A DNA stretch of 64,000 nucleotides from the NCBI GenBank assembly GCA_026874595.1, contig CM049314.1:53305812-53369811 (forward strand). The letters are read 5' to 3'. The number at the start of each line of letters is the position of its first letter. The first letter of the stretch is position 1. Positions 14,392-37,100 of this stretch are shown in pieces. The translations under genes were made by a program, and so were the position numbers. Source of the DNA: Sipunculus nudus (taxonomy: Eukaryota > Annelida > Sipuncula > Golfingiida > Sipunculidae). The notes beneath the pieces are model-generated. The model worked only from the letters and a program-made list of their open reading frames with translations, was not told the DNA's origin and made no database searches.

Positions 14392-16429
14392 CTAGATGTG
14401 TCGGAACGACACGAATGCCCCCGCCTGGGGCAAATTAGAAACATTTGTAAAATTTTGAAAAATTTTTTAAGTTCAGGTGTCGTCGTATGGTCAAAAGTAG
14501 GTCAACAAGGGCAAAATGCAAAATCATGCCAGTATATGCAGGCATTGTGAAAAAAGTCCATACATGTGCATTTTCCATAAAAATTTCTGTCTTTCATGAA
14601 ATTTTTTTATGTTTAGGAGCCGTAAAACAATCAAAAGTAGGTCAACCAGGACGAAACGCGAACTCGATCTGTAACTGTCATTATCTGCCCACACATAAAA
14701 AATCAGGGTGGTATCTGCAGGCATTGAAGAAAAAAAGTCAGTACATATGCATTTGTTATGAAAATTTCTATTTTTCATGAACTTTCTATGTTCAGGAGCA
14801 GTCAAATGGTCAAAAGTAGGTCAATTGGGACAAAACAAGAACTCGATCTGTAACTGGTCCTTATCTGCCTACACACCAAAAATCAGGCCCGTATCTGCAG
14901 GCACTGCGAAAAAAAGTCAATACATGTGCACTTTTTTATGAAATTTTCTATGTTAGAGCACCGTTAAATGGTCAAAAGTAGGTCAACGGGAACAAAACGT
15001 GAACTCGATCTGTAACTGGTCATTATCTGCCCACATACCCAAAATCATGCCAATATCTGCAGGTATTGCGAAGAAAAGTCTGTACAAGTGTATTTGTCAT
15101 GAAAATTTATATTTAAAATGAAATTTTCTATGTTCAGGAGCCGTAAAACAATCAAAAGTAGGTCAACTGGGACGAAACGCGAACTCGATCTGTAACTGGT
15201 CAATATCTGCCCACACACCAAAAATCAGGCCAACATCTGCAGGCATTGCGAAAAAAAGTCTGTACATGTGTATTAGTCATGAAATTTCATATTTTTCATG
15301 AAATTTTCTATGTTCAGGAGCCGTAAAACGGTCAAAAGTAGGTCAATCGGGACGAAACGCGAACTCGATCTGTAACTGGTCAATATCTGCCCACACACCA
15401 AAAATCAGGCCAATATCTGCAGGCATTGCGAAAAAAAGTCCGTACATGTGTATCTGTCATGAATATTTCTATTTTTCATGAAATTTTCTAAGTTAAGGAG
15501 GCGTAAAACGTTCAAAAGTAGGTCAACCGGGACGAAACGCGAACTCGATCTGTAACTGGTCATTATCTGCCCACACACAAAAAATCAGGCCAATATCTGC
15601 AGGCATTGCGAAAAAAAGTCCGTACATGTGTACATTTGTCATGAAAATTTCTATTTTTCATGAAATTTTCTAAGTTTAGGAGCCGTAAAACAGTCAAAAG
15701 TAGGTCAACTGGGACAAAACGCGAACTCGATCTGTAACTGGTCATTATCTGCCTACACACCAAAAATCAGGCCAATATCTGCAGGCATTGCGAAAAAAAG
15801 TCCGTACATGTGTATTTGTCATGAAATTTCATATTTTTCATGAAATTTTCTATGTTCAGGAGCCGTAAAACGGTCAAAAGTAGGTCAACCGGGACGAAAC
15901 GCAAACTCGATCTGTAACTGGTCTATATTTGCCCACACACCAAAAATCAGGCCAATATCTGCAGGCATTGCGAAAAAAAAGTCCGTACATGTGTATCTGT
16001 CATGAATATTTCTATTTTTCATGAAATTTTCTAAGTTAAGGAGGCGTAAAACGTTCAAAAGTAGGTCAACCGGGACGAAACGCAAACTCGATCTGTAACT
16101 GGTCATTATCTGACCACCCACAAAAAATCAGGCCAATATCTGCAGGCATTGCGAAAAAAAGTCCGTACATGTGTATTTGTCATGAAATTTCTATTTTTCA
16201 TGAAATTTTCTAAGTTTAGGAGCCGTAAAACGGTCAAAAATAGGTCAACCGGGACGAAACGCGAACTCGATCTGTAACTGGTCTATATCTGCCCACACAT
16301 CAAAAATCAGGCCAATATCTGCAGGCATTGCGAAAGAAAGTCCGTACAACTGTTTGATTTCGGAATGACGGAATGACGGACATGGGTAAAACTATATGCC
16401 CCGGCCACTTTGTGGCGGGGGCATAAAAA
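14392..16429 (-). mobile_element. Helitron-like element A with ~180-bp internal tandem repeats
   Basis: Read on the minus strand, the element ends with the hairpin GTGTCG-TTC-CGACAC, then AT and the terminus CTAG, followed by T: the CTRR-type 3' end of Helitrons and Helentrons. The other end carries a second GC hairpin (gcccc..ggccac-ttt-gtggc..ggggc, 16399-16422). The inside is about eleven tandem units of 180-181 bp, each with gtaggtcaac..gacgaaacgcgaactcgatc and gccaatatctgcaggcattgcg. A three-unit block seems duplicated (tgaatatttc near 15460 and 16000, 540 bp apart). It has no coding capacity. The architecture resembles the bivalve pearl family or other non-autonomous Helentrons. Confidence 0.75.
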
Positions 16430-22151: not shown

Positions 22152-22194
22152 TCATCTCATGAAGACATCTGTGTTTCTGTAGCTGGAATTGTCC
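22152..22194 (-). CDS. EIF4E2: eIF4E2 exon 7, C-terminal tail and stop
   Basis: The acceptor ataatattttcag is followed by G completing Lys206, then DNSSYRNTDVFMR and TGA. The phase fits exon 6, and DNSS.RNT is the tail I know from other invertebrate 4EHP proteins. Intron 6 is 3.4 kb and is mostly satellite. Confidence 0.92.
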
Positions 22195-25100
22195 CTGAAA
22201 ATATTATTTATATTCAGTAATTCATTACAAACAAATTTCCATTAAATCATAAAACCAAATAATCTGCTTTATTCACATACCAGTGACTCAGTGACCATGC
22301 AAACTTGATGAAAATCAGCTCAACCAGTTCTCTGATCTGACACTGTGACATAAACATGAACAAATTTCATTGTAGGGTTGTAGCTCCATTTTGATTTAAA
22401 ATTCCTCTAACCAAATCTAGGCTTTACTGAGCTTGATAGTTCTTTTATGCATTTTAATATAAAGATGTCATGGGAACCAAATTGTTGCCGTGGCTCACTC
22501 AAAAGATGCCTGACAAAGGTCACAAAATGTCTCAGCTTGAATTACACAAAAAAAGAGGTTTTACAAGAAAAGTAGCACATGCTTTGGCTATAGTTTAAAT
22601 ACTTTAGGGTTTGGCTGTATTGGAAACTGAGTCTTAATTTGAGTTATAAATTTTTTTACAAAAAAAAAAAAAACATTAACAAGCATACATACACTTGTAC
22701 TGGTGTACTTACTTGATGCTGTCTGTGTGACACTTGTACTGGTGTACTTACTTGATGCTGTTTGTGTGACACTTGTACTGGTGTACTTACTTGATGCTGT
22801 CTATGTGACACTTGTACTGGTGTACTTACTTGCTGCTGTCTGTGTGACACCTGTACTTATGTACTTTTTTTATGCTGTTTGTGTGACACTTTTACTGGTG
22901 TACTTACTTGATGCTGTTTATGTGACACATGAACTGGTGTACTAACTTGATGCTGTCTGTGTGACACATGAACTGGTGTACTTACTTGATGCTGTCTGTG
23001 TGACACTTGTACTGGTGTACTTACTTGATGCTGTTTGTGTGACACTTGTACTGGTGTACTTACTTGATGCTGTTTGTGTGACACTTGTACTGGTGTACTT
23101 AACTGATGCTGCTTGTGTGACACTTGTACTGGTGTACTTACTTGATGCTGTCTGTGTGACACTTGTACTGGTGTACTTACTTGATGCTGTCTGTGTGACA
23201 CTTGTATTGGTGTACTTACTTGATGCTGTCTGTGTGACACTTGTATTGGTGTACTTACTTGATGCTGTCTGTGTGACACTTGTATTGGTGTACTTACTTG
23301 ATGCTGTCTGTGTGACACTTGTATTGGTGTACTTACTTGATGCTGTTTGTGTGACACTTGTACTGGTGTACTTACTTGATGCTGTTTGTGTGACACTTGT
23401 ACTGGTGTACTTACTTGATGCTGTTTGTGTGGCACTTGTACTGGTGTACTTACTTGATGCTGTCTGTGTGACACTTGTACTGGTGTACTTACTTGATGCT
23501 GTCTGTGTGACACTTGTACTGGTGTACTTACTTGATGCTGTTTGTGTGACACTTGTACTGTTGTACTTACTTGATGCTGTTTGTGTGACACTTGTACTGG
23601 TGTACTTAACTGATGCTGCTTGTGTGACACTTGTACTGGTGTACTTACTTGATGCTGTCTGTGTGACACTTGTACTGGTGTACTTACTTGATGCTGTCTG
23701 TGTGACACTTGTATTGGTGTACTTACTTGATGCTGTCTGTGTGACACTTGTATTGGTGTACTTACTTGATGCTGTCTGTGTGACACTTGTATTGGTGTAC
23801 TTACTTGATGCTGTCTGTGTGACACTTGTATTGGTGTACTTACTTGATGCTGTTTGTGTGACACTTGTACTGGTGTACTTACTTGATGCTGTTTGTGTGA
23901 CACTTGTACTGGTGTACTTACTTGATGCTGTTTGTGTGACACTTGTACTGGTGTACTTACTTGATGCTGTTTGTGTGACACTTGTACTGGTGTACTTAAC
24001 TGATGCTGTTTGTGTGACACTTGTACTGGTGTACTTACTTGATGCTGTCTGTGTGACACTTGTACTGGTGTACTTACTTGATGCTGTCTGTGTGACACAT
24101 GAACTGGTGTACTAACTTGATGCTGTCTGTGTGACATTTGTACTTGTGTACTTACTTGATGCTGTCAGTGTGACACTTGTATTGGTGTACTTACTTGATG
24201 CTGTCTGTGTAACACTAGTATTGATGTACTTACTTGATGCTGTTTGTGTGACACTTGTGTTGTTGCATTTACTCGCTGCTGTATGTGTGACACTTGTACT
24301 GGTGTACTTACTTGATGCTGTTTGTGTGACACTTGTATTGGTGTACTTAATTGATGCTGTCTGTGTGACACTTGTGTTGTTGCATTTACTCACTGCTGTA
24401 TGTGTGACACTTGTACTGGTGTACTTTCTCGCTGCTGTTTGTGTGACACTTGTACTGGTGTACTTACTTGATGCTGTTTGTGTGACACTTGTACTGGTGT
24501 ACTTACTTGATGCTGTCTGTGTGACACTTGTACTGGTGTACTTACTTGATGCTGTTTGTGTGACACTTGTACTGGTGTACTTACTTGATGCTGTTTGTGT
24601 GGCACTTGTACTGGTGTACTTACTTGATGCTGTCTGTGTGACACTTGTACTGGTGTACTTACTTGATGCTGTCTGTGTGACACTTGTACTGGTGTACTTA
24701 CTTGATGCTGTTTGTGTGACACTTGTACTGGTGTACTAACTTGATGCTGTTTGTGTGACACTTGTACTGGTGTACTTAACTGATGCTGTTTGTGTGACAC
24801 TTGTACTGGTGTACTTACTTGATGCTGTCTGTGTGACACTTGTACTGGTGTACTTACTTGATGCTGTCTGAGTGACACTTGTATTGGTGTACTTACTTGA
24901 TGCTGTCTGTGTGACACTTGTATTGGTGTACTTACTTGATGCTGTCTGTGTGACACTTGTATTGGTGTACTTACTTGATGCTGTCTGTGTGACACTTGTA
25001 TTGGTGTACTTACTTGATGCTGTCTGTGTGACACTTGTATTGGTGTACTTACTTGATGCTATCTGTGTGACACTTGTATTGGTGTACTTACTTGATGCTG

Positions 25101-28100
25101 TCTGTGTGACACTTGTATTGGTGTACTTACTTGATGCTGTCTGTGTGACACTTGTATTGGTGTACTTACTTGATGCTGTCTGTGTGACACTTGTATTGGT
25201 GTACTTACTTGATGCTGTTTGTGTGACACTTGTATTGGTGTACTTACTTGATGCTGTCTGTGTGACACTTGTATTGGTGTACTTACTTGATGCTGTCTGT
25301 GTGACACTTGTATTGGTGTACCTACTTGATGCTGTCTGTGTGACACTTGTATTGGTGTACTTACTTGATGCTGTTTGTGTGACACTTGTACTGGTGTACT
25401 TACTTGATGCTGTTTGTGTGACACTTGTATTGGTGTACTTACTTGATGCTGTCTGTGTGACACTTGTATTGGTGTACTTACTTGATGCTGTCTGTGTGAC
25501 ACTTGTATTGGTGTACTTACTTGATGCTGTCTGTGTGACACTTGTACTGGTGTACTTACTTGATGCTGTCTGTGTGACACTTGTATTGGTGTACTTACTT
25601 GATGCTGTCTGTGTGACACTTGTATTCCATGATGGTATTAGGAGGAAGGTTCAGGACACGCTTCAAGGTGTCTCGTATCCGGGATGTGGTCACCTGGTCA
25701 TTTGCCGTCTTGTTCCACAGAGATAATATATCTTCCTGTAATTCAGATTATAACTGCTCAATGGAGGGACATAAAAAGGAAACTTCTTTCAAATCTTTTA
25801 GAACATATTGCCCAAGTATAATTTCATTCATTGCCTCAGACACCCTCACTGAGACTTTACAAAAGCAAATGAAGATATAATGACTGACCATCACTGAGCT
25901 GACCAAGATTATGGCTGTGATTATTAACTTCATGAAAATTATAAACATGTTGGTAGCCTGAGAGAACATAATTATCTGTGAAAATATCCCCCATAGTAAC
26001 CAAATTTGAAATATAACAAAATCAGGAAAATGTTATTGATAATTTGCAAGGGTTCCTCATACAATATTAACTGTTCTCATGACTAGCTGCAGAATAATAC
26101 TTCTGCAAACTTGAACATGAATAAATTAAGACACAAATCTGAGACTGAGGTCTATCAGTAATATTTAGGAGCAAGGCCACCCATCACAGGTACTTACTCA
26201 TCAGGGATACAGTTCCTACTCATCATAAATACAAACATACTCTTCAGGTACTCACTATAGATACAGACCCCTACTCACTACAGATACAGACCCCTACTCA
26301 CTACAGATACAGACCCCTACTCAGTTACAGACCTGCCCATCAGAGATACAGATCACTTACTGACCACTGTATTCAGTATGATGTACTCACCTGATATCGT
26401 ATTGAGATGACGGCACCACACACCTCCTCTCCCACCATGAACTGTTCTCCCAGCATGGCCAGCACTAAGTTCTCCCAGCACCGGGAAGCCAGGCCTTTCT
26501 TTAACCTGATGATCCATTTACCCCCCGCCCTGTTGGCCATGTCCTGTAACAATGATAAATAACCCAAGATCAGTTACAACCGGGAAATATATTCCACTTG
26601 TAAACCTGGCTGAACAGACTAGTCCAGAACACATGAACACTAGTAGCAAGTAAGACCCTAAAGTGACATGGCAGAGCTGAAGGAAGGCCACAGACACTAC
26701 TGTAGACCTGCGTAGGTCCCTATAATTTTGTCTGTTTCTGATTTTGCATAAATATACCCCAAGTAAAAGCAACCCCTATTCTTTTACTCTGTTGACCCTA
26801 TGTCCAGCTTCCCTGTTGCTGCCATGACCAGTTCCAGTAATTCACAATAATAACTACAGGTGGCATCTGTGTGCTCAATTATAGGGACCTGTAAAATCTG
26901 TACTGCTGCCACCTAGCACCGACTGGAAATCCAGTCGGTAACCCTGATGGGGCTACACTGACCACAGGTCTTGTGTCCTGTGATTAATGACTCTACGGTG
27001 ACACCCTGTGGCACCCCTGATGCAGAACAGAAGTCCAGCCCCTTCACAGCCATGTGGCCTGTGAGGTCTTGTGTAAACACTGCACCAGTAGGTGACTGTA
27101 TCAGTCACACATGAACAACTGAGCAGTTCACTATATAGCTGCAATTTTTGCAGCTTTATTGATATGTGGATATAAGAAATGAAGAAACGTCAGCTTGAAA
27201 TTTTGCAGTACTTTGCATAAAGTAAAGACTGTATCCTGTGTGCTCCTACTGGGTCTAGAAAATCCCTTGTATAGGAGTTGATGCCATATTTGTTTGAAAA
27301 CTTACACAAGGAAGCGCATTCAACACAGCCAGGACATTGTATGGTTATTGTCTTAACCCCTACCCCTAAAATATGAGATAGTTTGCATCATGAACTTCCA
27401 AAGCCATGGGTGGAAGAAGCCTACAGCACTCAAGGAATTTTCATTATCCCACTAGCTTGCGATTTTTAGGTGTCCTTTACCCATTTCAAGGTGTTCCAAA
27501 CATATAAATAGGGCAAACGCCATATAAATCTTTTTTTTTTTTGCAAAACTAAATACTAAATTTCAAAACCTGGAGTGACTTTACACCAGTATGAGGACAA
27601 TAATAATTAATTGATATTATTATGAATCAACATTGCATAATTTTTACACAAATAGAATTGGAAGAACATTACTATATTATAATTACTGTTTTGCTCCAAG
27701 GTAATAATATATAATATTTCTGAGGCCATTTTGTATCCTCTACCGGTAATCCTGATTTTATTTCCCTAAAAATTAACACTTGTGCATGTATAACAAAGGC
27801 ATGCATGTTTATGACTTTTTATTGAATTTTAATAATTCTTTTGATACTTCTTCTGTATATCAGAATGTATACCATTTATAGAAAGTCAAATATGCCAGGG
27901 TTCGGTGTTGATCAAATGGCATTTTTGGAGCAGTTAATTTGGAATATTGAAAATACAAATGAAAAATTCGCCAGATTGTAAGAGACAAGATAGTTAAAGC
28001 GTATATTAATACAAAGCGGCAAAAAAATAAAGGAGGTACAGGTGAAATATTGACATTTTGAGAGGCAAGACTTAAAACAGATAACTATATAGGGCAAAGG

Positions 28101-31100: not shown

Positions 31101-34100
31101 GCTACATTTGTCATGTATACAGGTGATGCATGTATCAATTATTGATGTAATGATTTGGTAAAAAATATCTGTTAAGGAACCTTGAACAATGGGTAGAATG
31201 ACTTCCAGAGTGCTCAAAATCATGTTTTTTGCCCATAGTCCTTAGAAAATAGGTACCTGCAAGATTTTACTAGGAACTCTGCAGATGCTAAGTTAGAAGT
31301 TTTTACATGAAACTGCTATGACTTGTGTCCATCTGACTCATAGGGTTCTTAAATCATCTTGTTTCACACAGCATACAGAATTGCGTCACTTTCACATTAT
31401 TTTGGTTGTCAAAGGAAAAAATTACAATGACCTCCCTTTATATTAAGAAAGACAATAGAGCCAACAGTTAAGATTTGTGACCTGTCTGACTTTCTGGGTA
31501 CTCAAAATTAGGTTTTCTGCTCATGGCTCAGACAATATAGGTCATAGTGACCTAATTTCAGGATTCAAAAGAGACTTAACAGGGACCTCCCTGGATGTCA
31601 TATTACAAGGTTCTAGGTAAAGTAAAGTTTGGTGCCATGCCTGACTGTCTGGATGCCCATAATCATATTTTTCGCTATCAGAGTATAGGTCCTCATGACC
31701 TAATTTCAAGTTTCAAGGACATAATAATATTTTATTTATTAAATGAAATAAAATGCTGTAAAAAAATTTGAAAATATCCGTTTTCAAATGAGCATCACTT
31801 GTATATGATGGGCATATATTGTACTGTGTAATACATGAAAACTGTGACCTGAAACCATTTTATACTGCAGTAAGGAAAAACACATTATGAGCCTGAGAGT
31901 TATATGAAAGGAAACATTTGACCAACAAAAAATGTGTTAATGTTATCAATAAGTCTGTATGGAGGGAGGAAGAGGAGAGAGAGAGTGAGAAAGTAGGAAA
32001 GGGGGAGCATTCAACAGAGCTTACAGGAAAAATGTTGATTCATAATCATTATATATTAAATGATAAACAGAGATGGTCAGACAAAGCTAATCACTGTATG
32101 TCCCATTCTGCTGTGGCAAGAATATAACATATATATCATATAGTTGCTATGAACTAAAAGGCAAGCCCACGGGTTCAATGGCATGGGGGGGGGGGGGATG
32201 AATGGTGAGTTACAACACCTCTGCATATACACACAGGTCTTGGATTTAAGGCAACAGTGCTTACAAGAGGAAAATTTTATTCATAATTATTAAATATTTA
32301 AAGACAGGCAGTGAGGTGGACAAACAAAGTTTGTTTCATATAAAATGAACAAATGTTTGCACAAGATCCTCATTCTTTTCATTACATCTATTTTTTTCAA
32401 GTTTATAAATTTTATACATATGCAATATAATATATATATCTGAATATATAAGTTGATTCACAATTCTAAATTGCATCATCATTTATCCCTAATTCTGTCA
32501 GAAAACAACACATTATGCATACACATGTATTTATTTTTACAAAAATATAATATATATATATATATATCTTATAAATTTGCAAAACAATACATATCTTAAA
32601 ATATAACTTAATTCACAATCTTCAATTTTAAATTGCACCTTTATTTGTCCATAAATTCCTTCATTTATTATCAATTTATGCTTCCTTCTGAGTATAATTA
32701 TATTCTAATTCGTTAAAATTATTTAAAAGGAAATTAATTTCTTTAAAAATGTTACATTCACAGCATGTCATTATGGATAACTCCTTGATTTAGAACAGTT
32801 TTGAACAATGGAATGAAACAGCTTAACAATTAAGGAAATAAATTTAAAACTATAACAATTTTTGCATTATACTTGGGTGTGGGGGGGGAGAGAGGGTAAG
32901 ATGAGAACTAGACATTTCTTGGCACCGCAGGTGCCATAGTATCCCCAGACAATTAGTCCCCCCCCCCTTTTAAGAATAGGCCCCCATCATCAGCAACAAT
33001 TAATATCAGACCACACTCATAGAAAAGGTCACTCTCATAGAAACAGTCATGACCCCAATTTCAATATACATCATCCCATAACCCATGTCTATGTATATGC
33101 ATAATATGAAAGAAATCTGTCCATTAGTTTTTGACTTATAATGCTCACAGTACTGTTAAGTGGCAATGATGGGGGTCTTAACAGCACAAAAACTAGTAAA
33201 AGAATAACAGGTGGCGCCACCTGTTTCCCGTACATGACATTACTATCCAAGATCTTTGATCAAATTGATTTTTGGACCAATCTGTGCATCCCTTATTGAG
33301 ATATTAATGATTTTGTGTATTTTTCACCATATATGGCAATATTCAAAGTCAAGGCCACTCTATTAGGAAAGGTCATGACCCCAATATTTATATACATCAT
33401 CCCATAACCCATGTCTATGTATATGCATAATATGAAAGAAATCTGTCCATTAGTTTTTGACTTATAATGCTCACAGTACTGTTAAGTGGCAATGATGTGG
33501 GTATTAAAGGCACAAAAACACGTAAAAGAATAACAGGTGGCGCCACATGTTTCTGGTACATGACATTACTATCTTCGGTCAAGTTGATTTTTGGACCAAT
33601 CCATGCATCCCTTATTGAGAAATTAATGATTTTGTGTGATTTTTACCATATATCTCATAGAAAAGGTCATGACCCCAATTTAAATAACATTATCCCATAA
33701 CCCATATCTATGTATATTATATATTATAGTATATATTATATATAAACAACTGAATCTTGATTAAATTTTTTATTTGAAAAAAAAAAAGTGTCTAGCTTCA
33801 ACATTTCTCATGTTAAGTGATTAAATATCCTTTCCTAATTTTTACACCCCTGCCACAAAGTGGCCGGGGCATATAGTTTTACCAATGTCCATCCTTCCGT
33901 CATTTCGAAATCAAACAGTTGTACAGATTTTTTTGCAATGCCGGCAGATATTGGCCTGATTTTTGGTGTGTGGGCAGATAATGACCAGTTACAGATTGAG
34001 ATTGCGTTCTGTCCCGGTTGACCTACTTTTGAACGTTTTATGCCTCCTTAACTTTGAAAATTTCATTAAAAATAGAAATTTTCATGACAAATACATATGT

Positions 34101-37100
34101 ACAGACTTTTTTTTGCAATGCCTGCAGATATTGGCCTGATTTTTGGTGTGTGGGCAGATATAGACCAGTTACAGATCGAGTTCCCGTTTCGTCCCAGTTG
34201 ACCTACTTTTGACCGTTTTACGGCTCCTGAACTAAGAAAATTTCATGAAAAATAAAAATTTTCATGACAAATACACATGTACAGACTTTTTTCACAATAC
34301 CTGCAGATATTGGCCTGATTTTTGGTGTGTGAGCAGGTAATGACCAGCTGCAGATCGAGTTCAGGTTTTGTCCCCGTTGACCTACTTTTGACTGTTTGAC
34401 GGTGCTCTAACATAGAAAAACTCATAAAAAAAGTGCACATGTACAGACTTTTTTTCGCAATGCCTGCAGATACGGGCCTGATTTTCGGTGTGTAGGCAGA
34501 TAATGACCAGTTACAGATCGAGTTCTTGTTTTGTCCCAGTTGACCTACATTTGACCATTTGACTGCTCCTGAACATAGAAAGTTTCATGAAAAAATAGAA
34601 ATTTTCATAACAAATGCATATGTACAGACTTTTTCTTCCTCAATGCCTGCAGATACCACCCTGATTTTTTTTGGTGTGGGCAGATAATGACAGTTACAAA
34701 TCGAGTTCACGTTTCGTCCCGGTTGACCTACTTTTGATTGTTTCATGGCTCCTAAACATAGAAAATTTCATATAGGACAGAAATTTTTATGAAGAATGCA
34801 CATGTATGGACTTTTTTTCACAATGCCTGCAGATACTGGCCTGATTTTTGGTGTGTTGCTTGATAAGGACCCGTTACAGATCAAATTTGCATTTTGCCCT
34901 TGTTGACCCACTTTTGACCATATGACACCTCCTGAACTTAAAAATTTTTTCAAAATTTAACAAATGATTATAATTTGCCCCAGGTGGGGGTATTTGTGTC
35001 GTTCTGACACATCTAGTTTTACAAAGTGTATTATGTTTGGGCCCACAACTTCAAGAAATTACACAATACTAACCTTATTTCTGGTATGCACATAGGAAAT
35101 ATATAGAGGAATATTTATATTATATATGATCAAAAAGAGATCAGTGGTTTTAATATTAAGCAGTCTTGAAATGAAACAATGGGTTTTAAATGGAAATTGA
35201 GGTTTTTCTTAATATCTCAAAGGGACGAAGTCATAGTGACCAAATTTTCAGAATGGTAGATATTCGTGAGATCTAACTGTATGCAAAATTTCAGATTCAT
35301 TGATCCAACAGTTTCATAACGTGCCCTGTCAACAGACGTACCCTCAGACGGATGACAGACAAAGGACCATTGCTATAGCTTAGATGACTTATAGTCAGCT
35401 GAGATAAAAAAAAATATAACAAAATACTCAATCTTAACTAATCATGTTGTTAAACACACATAGTATGACTGGCACACCTTTCTTTATCAGTTTATGTGGG
35501 CATATAAATTTTCTGAAATTAAGTATATCACTGAATTAACTCAAGTATTTACCCATAAGTCAATTCAAGTATATTCATTAGTCCACTCAAGTATATTTAT
35601 ACATCAACTCAAGTATATTTATAAGTCAACTCAAGTATATTTATGAGGTCAACTCAGTAAATGAACTCTATCTTAGCAGTAGCAGTGGTATATTTTAACG
35701 GCTGATATATATTACCTCCCACATGGGTCGAATCCCACACTTAAACAGGTGGTAGTCACTGTGCCCAGACAGGTCACTTGGCCGCACCAGGTGATTGTAA
35801 TACCTCCAAAACTGTTCCACCTGAAAAAGTAACAAGTTGCCCATGGGCCATGATGCTCAGCTGAATTCAAGGATCCTTGAACAATGGGTAACATGACTCC
35901 TAGAGTGTTCAAAATCATGCATTTTGCCAATAGACATTAGTGCACAGGTAAGAGTAGGTTTAGATACGTAGGTTAGAGTGACCTTATTCTACATCAAGCT
36001 GCTACCATTTGTGCCCATCTGACATACAGAGTGTTAGAATCATGTTCTTTCAGTTTGCAGAATAGTTCACAGTGACAATATTTCAGGTTTCCAAGAAATT
36101 TTTACAGGAACCTCCCTGGATCTTAATCAAATTAGAAGTTTCTGGGTCTAACTGTAACCAATCATGCAAATCTGTCCTACAGGGTGCTCATATCATGTAC
36201 TTTCACATATCTTGCAGAATATAGGTCACTATAACCTAATTTCAAGTTTCTAAAGAGATTTGCCTCAATGGATGTACAGTAAAAGATTCTAGGTCTAACT
36301 GTTGCAGTCCTGCCCTATTAACAGCCAGACTGCTTCATTTGAAGGTCTTAGAACAGAGAAAAAAATCCTTAAAAAAATAGAAAAAAAGACTGGTGGTGCC
36401 ACTAGTCTGCAGGAACTGATGATACACTCCATGATCAATATACATGCAAAGAATCATCGAGATCAAAGCATTAGTTATTTAGATACAGGGATTTTTGTGT
36501 CAAATTTCTAATTTTCTGTTTAAGCTGCAAAATGCACCCTAATAAAAGTAGGTATGACAACTAAAAATGAAACACATAAAGAGTAGTTTTTTGTGGAATG
36601 AATGGTGATGGAATGTGAATTTGATCACTTACTGATGCAAATGTAGCAACTTGTTTGAGGTTCTGGTCATAGTTCTGAGAAGATGTGGCTTTTCCTGGTG
36701 TCCTCCGAGAAAACCAAAACGTGTACTGAAACTGGAGCTTGTGTTCCCCTGGTCCCACCACTGCTGGCTGAAACATAAAAAAATGTTAACACTATCAAGG
36801 CATTAAGCTTCATATCTAATCTAATCTACAGCAACATACACCAGCCACAAGGCCAAACATGCCAAGTAAGTGGTGCAACAGGCAGCCATGTAACAGAAAA
36901 AGGAAGGATCTCACCAATGTCACATTTCTAACAAGGGACCCATATTTCACAATGGTCAGCTGAATTTGCCTATGAGTAGTGTTGGGACAATATGAGAGAT
37001 ATGAGCTTGGATGTCTGCAGCTTAAACGTGAATGTAGGTGGCGCCACCTGTCATAAAATCAAGAAAGCTGTCCAGAATGTATACACATGCAAAATTTCAG

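Follow-up and report, generated by a model that had tools for sequence, protein, structure and literature searches.

The window analyzed here is a stretch of 64,000 nucleotides from Sipunculus nudus (GenBank assembly GCA_026874595.1, contig CM049314.1, positions 53,305,812 to 53,369,811 of the forward strand). On its minus strand it carries an apparent gene for eIF4E2 (4EHP), the last intron of which is largely filled by a tandem array of 39-bp units that repeat the junction of exon 6 and intron 6 (Table 1). The genome searched comprised 1,426,538,692 bases in 153 contigs, with the window on contig C9. Exons 3-7 of the gene form a single open frame of 190 residues, which matched Pfam IF4E at 1.7e-60. 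Its match to the PDB record "translation initiation factor 4E type 2" reached 3.3e-102, whereas no other eIF4E scored better than 3.7e-35. By these matches, the host gene is eIF4E2/4EHP, with an IF4E domain nearest to type 2, as a first-pass annotation of the window had named it when it assigned exon 6 and its donor. Genome-wide, Pfam IF4E gave six matches, of which two lie in the window and the remainder on C2 and C1. A search of the genome with the window's own eIF4E2 protein returned four matches, all of them exons of the window gene, and found no second eIF4E2 copy. The last coding exon was located by a tail motif of animal eIF4E2 proteins: exon 6 terminates at 25599 inside ...EYKCHTDSIK, and the G of the last exon completes the K codon, after which come DNSSYRNTDVFMR and the stop.

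Table 1. Features of eIF4E2 and its junction array, in window positions
Feature	Positions	Strand	Remark
eIF4E2 exon 3	36633..36767	-	
eIF4E2 exon 4	35716..35820	-	
eIF4E2 exon 5	26391..26543	-	
eIF4E2 exon 6, 137 nt	25599..25735	-	phase 2 at its end
Frame-fitting donor GT of exon 6	25597..25598	-	
eIF4E2 intron 6, 3404 nt	22195..25598	-	about 2.9 kb is array
eIF4E2 last coding exon	22152..22194	-	DNSSYRNTDVFMR and stop; acceptor TTTTCAG directly upstream
39-bp tandem array	22691..25624	-	75 full units, then 9 nt more; begins with the exon 6/intron 6 junction as unit 1
Unit 1	25586..25624	-	3'-terminal 26 nt of exon 6 (25624-25599), then 13 nt of intron 6
Units 2-75	22700..25585	-	intact GTAAGT in 61 of 74
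More diverged patch, units 31-39	24104..24454	-	
9-nt partial last copy, TACAAGTGT	22691..22699	-	same 9 nt in exon 6 at 25624-25616

Tandem Repeats Finder (TRF) reported the array in intron 6 with a period of 39, 75.2 copies, 94% matches, and 0% indels. When it was cut in phase from 25624 along the minus strand, 26 distinct unit types were found; the commonest accounts for 19 units, and unit 1 is exactly identical to it. Each unit consists of the exonic part TACAAGTGTCACACAGACAGCATCAA (26 nt), followed by GTAAGTACACC and two further bases, which are intronic or, judged against the exon's GGAA, possibly exonic. Counting the A/A that precedes each unit as exon raises the exonic share to 28 nt; with 26-28 nt from the exon and 11-13 nt from the intron in each unit, the array is a minisatellite of the junction itself. 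The last column of the unit is G in 45/75 and A in 30/75, GTAAGT is intact in 62/75 units, and GT is intact in 68/75. The first-pass annotation had described about 75 copies at 22694-25627, in exact 39-bp phase and starting at the functional donor, and this description stands with coordinates 3 bases off. Its monomer of exon plus intron also holds, but not the proposed split of 25 + 14; likewise, near-identical decoy donors are present by the dozen, but GTAAGT is not found in every monomer as it had stated.

A 117-nt probe spanning three units gave 33 matches genome-wide, all at a single locus, the eIF4E2 array. The length of the array rules out a chance origin. Two runs of units recur exactly inside it, one of 8 units at offset 13 and the other of 5 units at offset 30, and the pair of 9-nt TACAAGTGT copies at its two ends is a possible candidate for the short direct repeat behind the first duplication. 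An assembly artefact, in the array or in its copy number, is highly improbable: copy numbers of tandem arrays in assemblies are commonly uncertain, but here the 26 unit types stand in an ordered pattern between non-repeated flanks on either side, and comparable arrays occur at other loci, as described below.

Among the array donors, only the one in unit 1, at 25598, joins the last coding exon in frame. Splicing from any decoy, that is, a donor in units 2-75, would add GTAA..., giving K and then an in-frame TAA directly after ...DSIK, and the predicted product lacks the last 13 residues. The usual rule for nonsense-mediated decay sets a distance of 50 nt; as the stop would lie 35 nt upstream of the splice junction with unit 2 and 74 nt with unit 3, decay is predicted from unit 3 onward. 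Two of the three sense frames of the array stay open for as many as 389 and 435 residues, which might suggest that it encodes a 13-residue peptide repeat. With a period divisible by 3, however, such open stretches cost nothing, and the eIF4E2 frame itself meets a stop in the codon right after K, so we regard a coding function of this kind as extremely improbable. The residue before HTDSIK is Cys (25616-25618), where human eIF4E2 has Thr. The first two bases of this codon are invariant in 75/75 units, so the change to Cys either predates the array or spread through it.

We then compared the real donor with the decoys. The predicted U1 duplex of the real donor is weak, at -7.0 kcal/mol with an A at -1, against -13.6 for the exon 5 donor and -14.0 for a perfect site, and all decoys with intact GTAAGT have the same predicted energy as the real donor. 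Its predicted accessibility, 0.105, is matched or exceeded by 10/74 decoys. Because the energies are equal and the accessibilities overlap, local sequence cannot distinguish the real donor from its decoys, and predicted accessibility does not support RNA structure as a mask over decoys in this array. Selection for the decoy motif was likewise not apparent. The six donor columns hold 14 changes (mean 2.33), compared with means of 1.4 in exonic columns, leaving aside the highly variable column 16, and 1.5 in intronic columns 33-38, and GTAAGT ranks 24th of the 37 hexamers of the unit by retention. By these counts, the decoys are neither preferentially kept nor clearly purged. Ranks were mixed across the 11 further arrays that could be ranked of 12 tried, a set that includes one, L006, not at an exon.

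These ranks also bear on a role for the array in binding U1, either as a block that guards a long transcript against early polyadenylation or as a sponge that soaks up U1, the latter having been suggested by the first-pass annotation. Many U1-like sites do lie within one intron, but the donor hexamer is retained only to an average degree, which speaks against sequestration, and the array sits in a last intron of 3.4 kb instead of a long upstream one. A vertebrate cell has a U1 pool of about one million, beside which the sites on nascent transcripts, numbering a few hundred, count for little. We therefore consider such a role very unlikely.

Two further repeats were noted in the window. A short way past the exon 5 donor, intron 5 of eIF4E2 contains a 23-bp repeat with GTGAGT (26249-26331); its reading as another junction array was rejected, since 335/500 shuffles reached the alignment score of that donor. 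A tandem repeat of ~180 bp is present at two places (14520-16348 and 33920-34947), apparently in opposite orientations.

Arrays that start at an exon end recur elsewhere in this genome. The survey took genome matches to three successive copies of a donor motif, and distinct arrays were sampled among the matches listed: 7 for GTAAGT, from the first 3 Mb of C1; 11 for AGGTAAGT, from C1 and, on C2, as far as 37 Mb; and 19 for AGGTGAGT, from C1, C2, and C3 to 95.7 Mb. Of the 37 donor-bearing arrays, 27 have a first copy that reads as an exon 3' end (4/7, 8/11, and 15/19, respectively). An exon end was called where an open frame ran up to the donor; an acceptor-like AG stood at the start of the frame in 24/27, and none was seen for L014, L028, and L038, which are counted. 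L003 was initially taken as non-exonic and was counted once its match to ATG7 was found, and L028, L036, and L041 are counted with <8 nt of exon within the repeat. Eight arrays were rejected as not junction-seeded (L004, L006, L008, L012, L030, L031, L037, and L040), and two were left unclassed, L009 and L007, the latter filling the 7.4 kb fetched. L066 and L007 (G000:C1:2981000-2988300) together show a GC-rich 50-bp array throughout the ~7.3 kb fetched. With eIF4E2 counted, the repeat includes at least 8 exonic nt in 25/28 arrays, with a median of 27.5 nt.

Homology at 1e-4 or better was detected for 12/27 exon-end frames. The matches were to CNNM2 (L005, 1.2e-20), the PKA type I-alpha regulatory subunit (L017, 8.6e-25), ATG7 (L003, 2.5e-10), TMEM94 (L033, 6.3e-6), annexin (L032), major intrinsic protein (L034), the MAS20 import receptor (L039), a Kunitz domain (L043), a Raf-like Ras-binding domain (RBD; L002, 5e-8, and L001, 3.7e-5, the latter under the Pfam cut-off), an ABC transporter membrane region (L015, 3.1e-6, slightly under the cut-off), and a leucine-rich repeat (L038, 1.8e-5, under the cut-off). 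The ATG7 donor-side array (G000:C1:883200-887300) has ~73 copies of 45 bp, a number comparable to that in eIF4E2. L001 and L002 (G000:C1:420900-440000) are donor-side arrays with 12 copies of 35 bp and 39 copies of 54 bp, respectively; as their exons match neighboring parts of one Raf-like RBD, a single gene seemingly holds two arrays. Across 35/37 arrays (L007 and L012 left out), the open frames upstream of first copies exceeded in length both those at random sites (p 3.6e-6) and those at GTRAGT sites of random DNA (p 8.6e-5, n=42), with only 4/35 above the random 95th percentile.

Arrays also adjoin exons at the acceptor side, in 4/16 of those fetched; three of the 16 could not be judged. 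For the motif TTTTNCAG (8 fetched of 9 listed), three arrays, L051, L052, and L053, end at an apparent exon start, with MMS19 homology (6.8e-13) at one of them, and L048 was array throughout. At L053 (G000:C1:8484789-8489400), a 44-bp array of several kb lies upstream of the MMS19 exon, and its unit repeats the acceptor and the first exon bases, a mirror image of the eIF4E2 array. For TTTCAG (8 fetched of ~10 listed), one array, L020, lies at an exon start, L025 was without an array by TRF, and L026 was array throughout. The L020 exon matches ATG7 at 1.1e-8, earlier in the protein than L003 and on the same contig and strand; its 20-bp array (G000:C1:954500-956300) reaches the acceptor of this earlier exon ~70 kb from L003. 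For the reversed motif TGAATGGA, 0/3 arrays were at an exon edge. Arrays of this class thus occur at both exon edges and not at donors alone, so the case for a mechanism specific to donors is weaker.

At the four acceptor-side arrays, the exon comes after the last copy, so that the exon-proximal copy is apparently the real one on both sides. With the longest open phase taken as coding, one inserted unit would disrupt the frame, by a shift or a stop, in 23/28 genes and be harmless in 5/28, compared with 8/56 harmless tests in the two other phases; periods divisible by 3 number 12/28 (p = 0.19). Much use of later donors should give an excess of harmless units, and as none is seen, there is no sign of such use. 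These sequence patterns lead us to infer that splicing uses the exon-proximal copy, with the others as passengers, a pattern that would fit exon definition better than a rule by which the first site transcribed is the first used.

The minisatellite of human IFI6 (6-16) has a short unit of 12 bp. Its units, like those of eIF4E2, offer several donors at an exon end, and the available text reports that two downstream units are used (PMC4526556); that use occurs in vivo, whereas in eIF4E2 later donors would stop the frame at once. For human UBC, the accessible part of the report describes an array of dual-specific splice sites and a ladder of unit size by reverse transcription-PCR (PMC10809524). 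As in eIF4E2, identical splice sites stand in tandem within one gene, but the UBC units are coding ubiquitin monomers in which AG/GT is both donor and acceptor, whereas the eIF4E2 unit reads ATCAA/GTAAGT and, with AA before GT and no AG, is not a dual site of that kind. Both systems lend some weight to the idea that decoys are used at a useful level and that the array tunes 4EHP output, with unit 2 yielding 4EHP minus its last 13 residues and unit 3 onward yielding transcripts for nonsense-mediated decay. The 61 decoys equal to the real donor in predicted U1 pairing, and the 10 that reach its accessibility, point the same way. We nevertheless judge useful decoys unlikely, given that harmless units are not in excess and that the eIF4E2 donor hexamer is not retained above other hexamers. 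Nor does the ladder of useful products anticipated by the first-pass annotation follow, because every decoy product ends at the same immediate in-frame stop.

The closest structural parallel is the 31-bp variable number tandem repeat (VNTR) of human CBS, c.1444_1467+7(16_21), whose name specifies 24 exonic and 7 intronic bases (PMC2630376) and which is placed at exon 13-intron 13 (PMC1395315). As far as these sources go, its unit likewise straddles an exon-intron junction, in tandem and head to tail; it differs in having 16-21 copies, in one human gene and polymorphic in people, whereas the eIF4E2 array has 75 and is accompanied by similar arrays at other genes. Variable internal tandem repeats at exon-intron boundaries are described, in the available text, for genes in human segmental duplications, from 162 alignments and with 27 intron modifications after inspection (PMC2812944). 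These too are minisatellites at exon boundaries of many genes, but of ~30 bp repeated 4 times on average, in recent paralogs, and studied there for altered gene structure and the creation of introns. Intron gain by tandem duplication, as far as it is set out in PMC4974935, similarly involves splice sites duplicated within a gene, but it creates a new intron, and none is seen in eIF4E2. An abalone intron is shown with 62 repeats of a 27-bp minisatellite, its location relative to a junction not being stated in the accessible text (PMC6905558). Our searches of the open-licence literature listed no paper that describes junction arrays as a genome-wide class in any invertebrate. The CBS VNTR and the IFI6 minisatellite contradict the view that no satellite formed from an exon-intron junction had been described: the structure is of a known kind at a larger scale, and what is new is its recurrence in this genome, at both exon edges and in conserved genes.

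To set this recurrence against chance, we counted comparable array starts in random stretches and the masked window. Leaving out one satellite stretch, L061, these numbered 33/130,900 positions (0.025%), compared with donor arrays at no fewer than ~0.25% of AGGTAAGT sites (at least 8 in ~148 Mb, with 21 sites per Mb estimated from 3 sites). L061 (G000:C3:20000001-20010000) is a randomly chosen 10 kb that is almost wholly tandem repeat; with it counted, array starts rise to 906/140,900 positions, above the donor rate. An excess of arrays at junctions is likely, short of proof. The alternative for the class as a whole is that junctions are not preferred and that, in a minisatellite-rich genome, a motif search inevitably finds some arrays on donors. 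The count with L061 favors it, as do the acceptor-side arrays and the GTAAGT triples, which with 15,519 matches are not above the 22,419 of the reversed motif, but the rate without L061 falls well below that of AGGTAAGT sites; we place its chances somewhat short of even. A genome-wide donor pattern with 15-base spacing also gave fewer matches than the reversed motif; the pattern was ill-chosen and was dropped. By extrapolation from 8 arrays in ~148 Mb and 15 in ~305 Mb, there would be ~150 junction arrays genome-wide for two motifs and, using an assumed share of such donors, there might be about a thousand across all donors. With slightly less than an even chance in its favor, we tentatively suggest that exon boundaries, chiefly on the donor side, are favored sites of minisatellite birth or survival in this animal. 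Under this suggestion, either junctions might breed tandem duplication, or arrays might be tolerated only where the exon-proximal copy stays choosable.

Taken together, we consider it likely that the eIF4E2 array is a junction-born minisatellite in which unit 1 is used and the rest are passengers, and that it is one of a class. Tandem duplication would first have copied 39 bp that span the exon 6/intron 6 junction, after which slippage, together with the duplication of unit runs, would have extended the array into the intron. Unit 1 is still the end of exon 6; its donor would be spliced to the last exon, with units 2-75 carried along. The exon-proximal copy would be kept despite a local sequence no better than that of the others, probably by exon definition, that is, by pairing with the exon's own acceptor, and eIF4E2 is one large example of a recurring class of exon-end arrays. 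Several points weigh against this explanation. In two-site experiments, the intron-proximal donor often wins when U1 is at both sites, which predicts use of late copies. The exon-end calls were made by eye and were not blind, and acceptor-side cases are few, at 4/16. In 15/27 exon-end frames, there was no homology match at 1e-4: L010, L011, L013 (PH, 0.016), L014, L016, L018, L027, L028, L029, L035, L041, L042, L044, L045, and L036, the last lying outside the completed homology searches.

Work on the choice of 5' splice sites has relied mostly on minigenes with few competing sites. In the native genes described here, one donor is present in 3 to ~75 copies of identical local sequence, so that position must decide, and the recurring arrays offer a natural test of how the cell chooses among identical splice sites. 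If the exon-proximal copy wins on both sides of the exon, many loci of a single animal would provide direct evidence of exon definition, whereas use of later copies would mean widespread ladder splicing. In either case, coding exon ends evolve beside an unstable repeat and may convert with it. Should exon boundaries prove to be favored sites, perhaps hundreds to a thousand intron starts in S. nudus would be filled with copies of their own splice site, a natural experiment on exon definition with up to ~75 near-identical competing sites.

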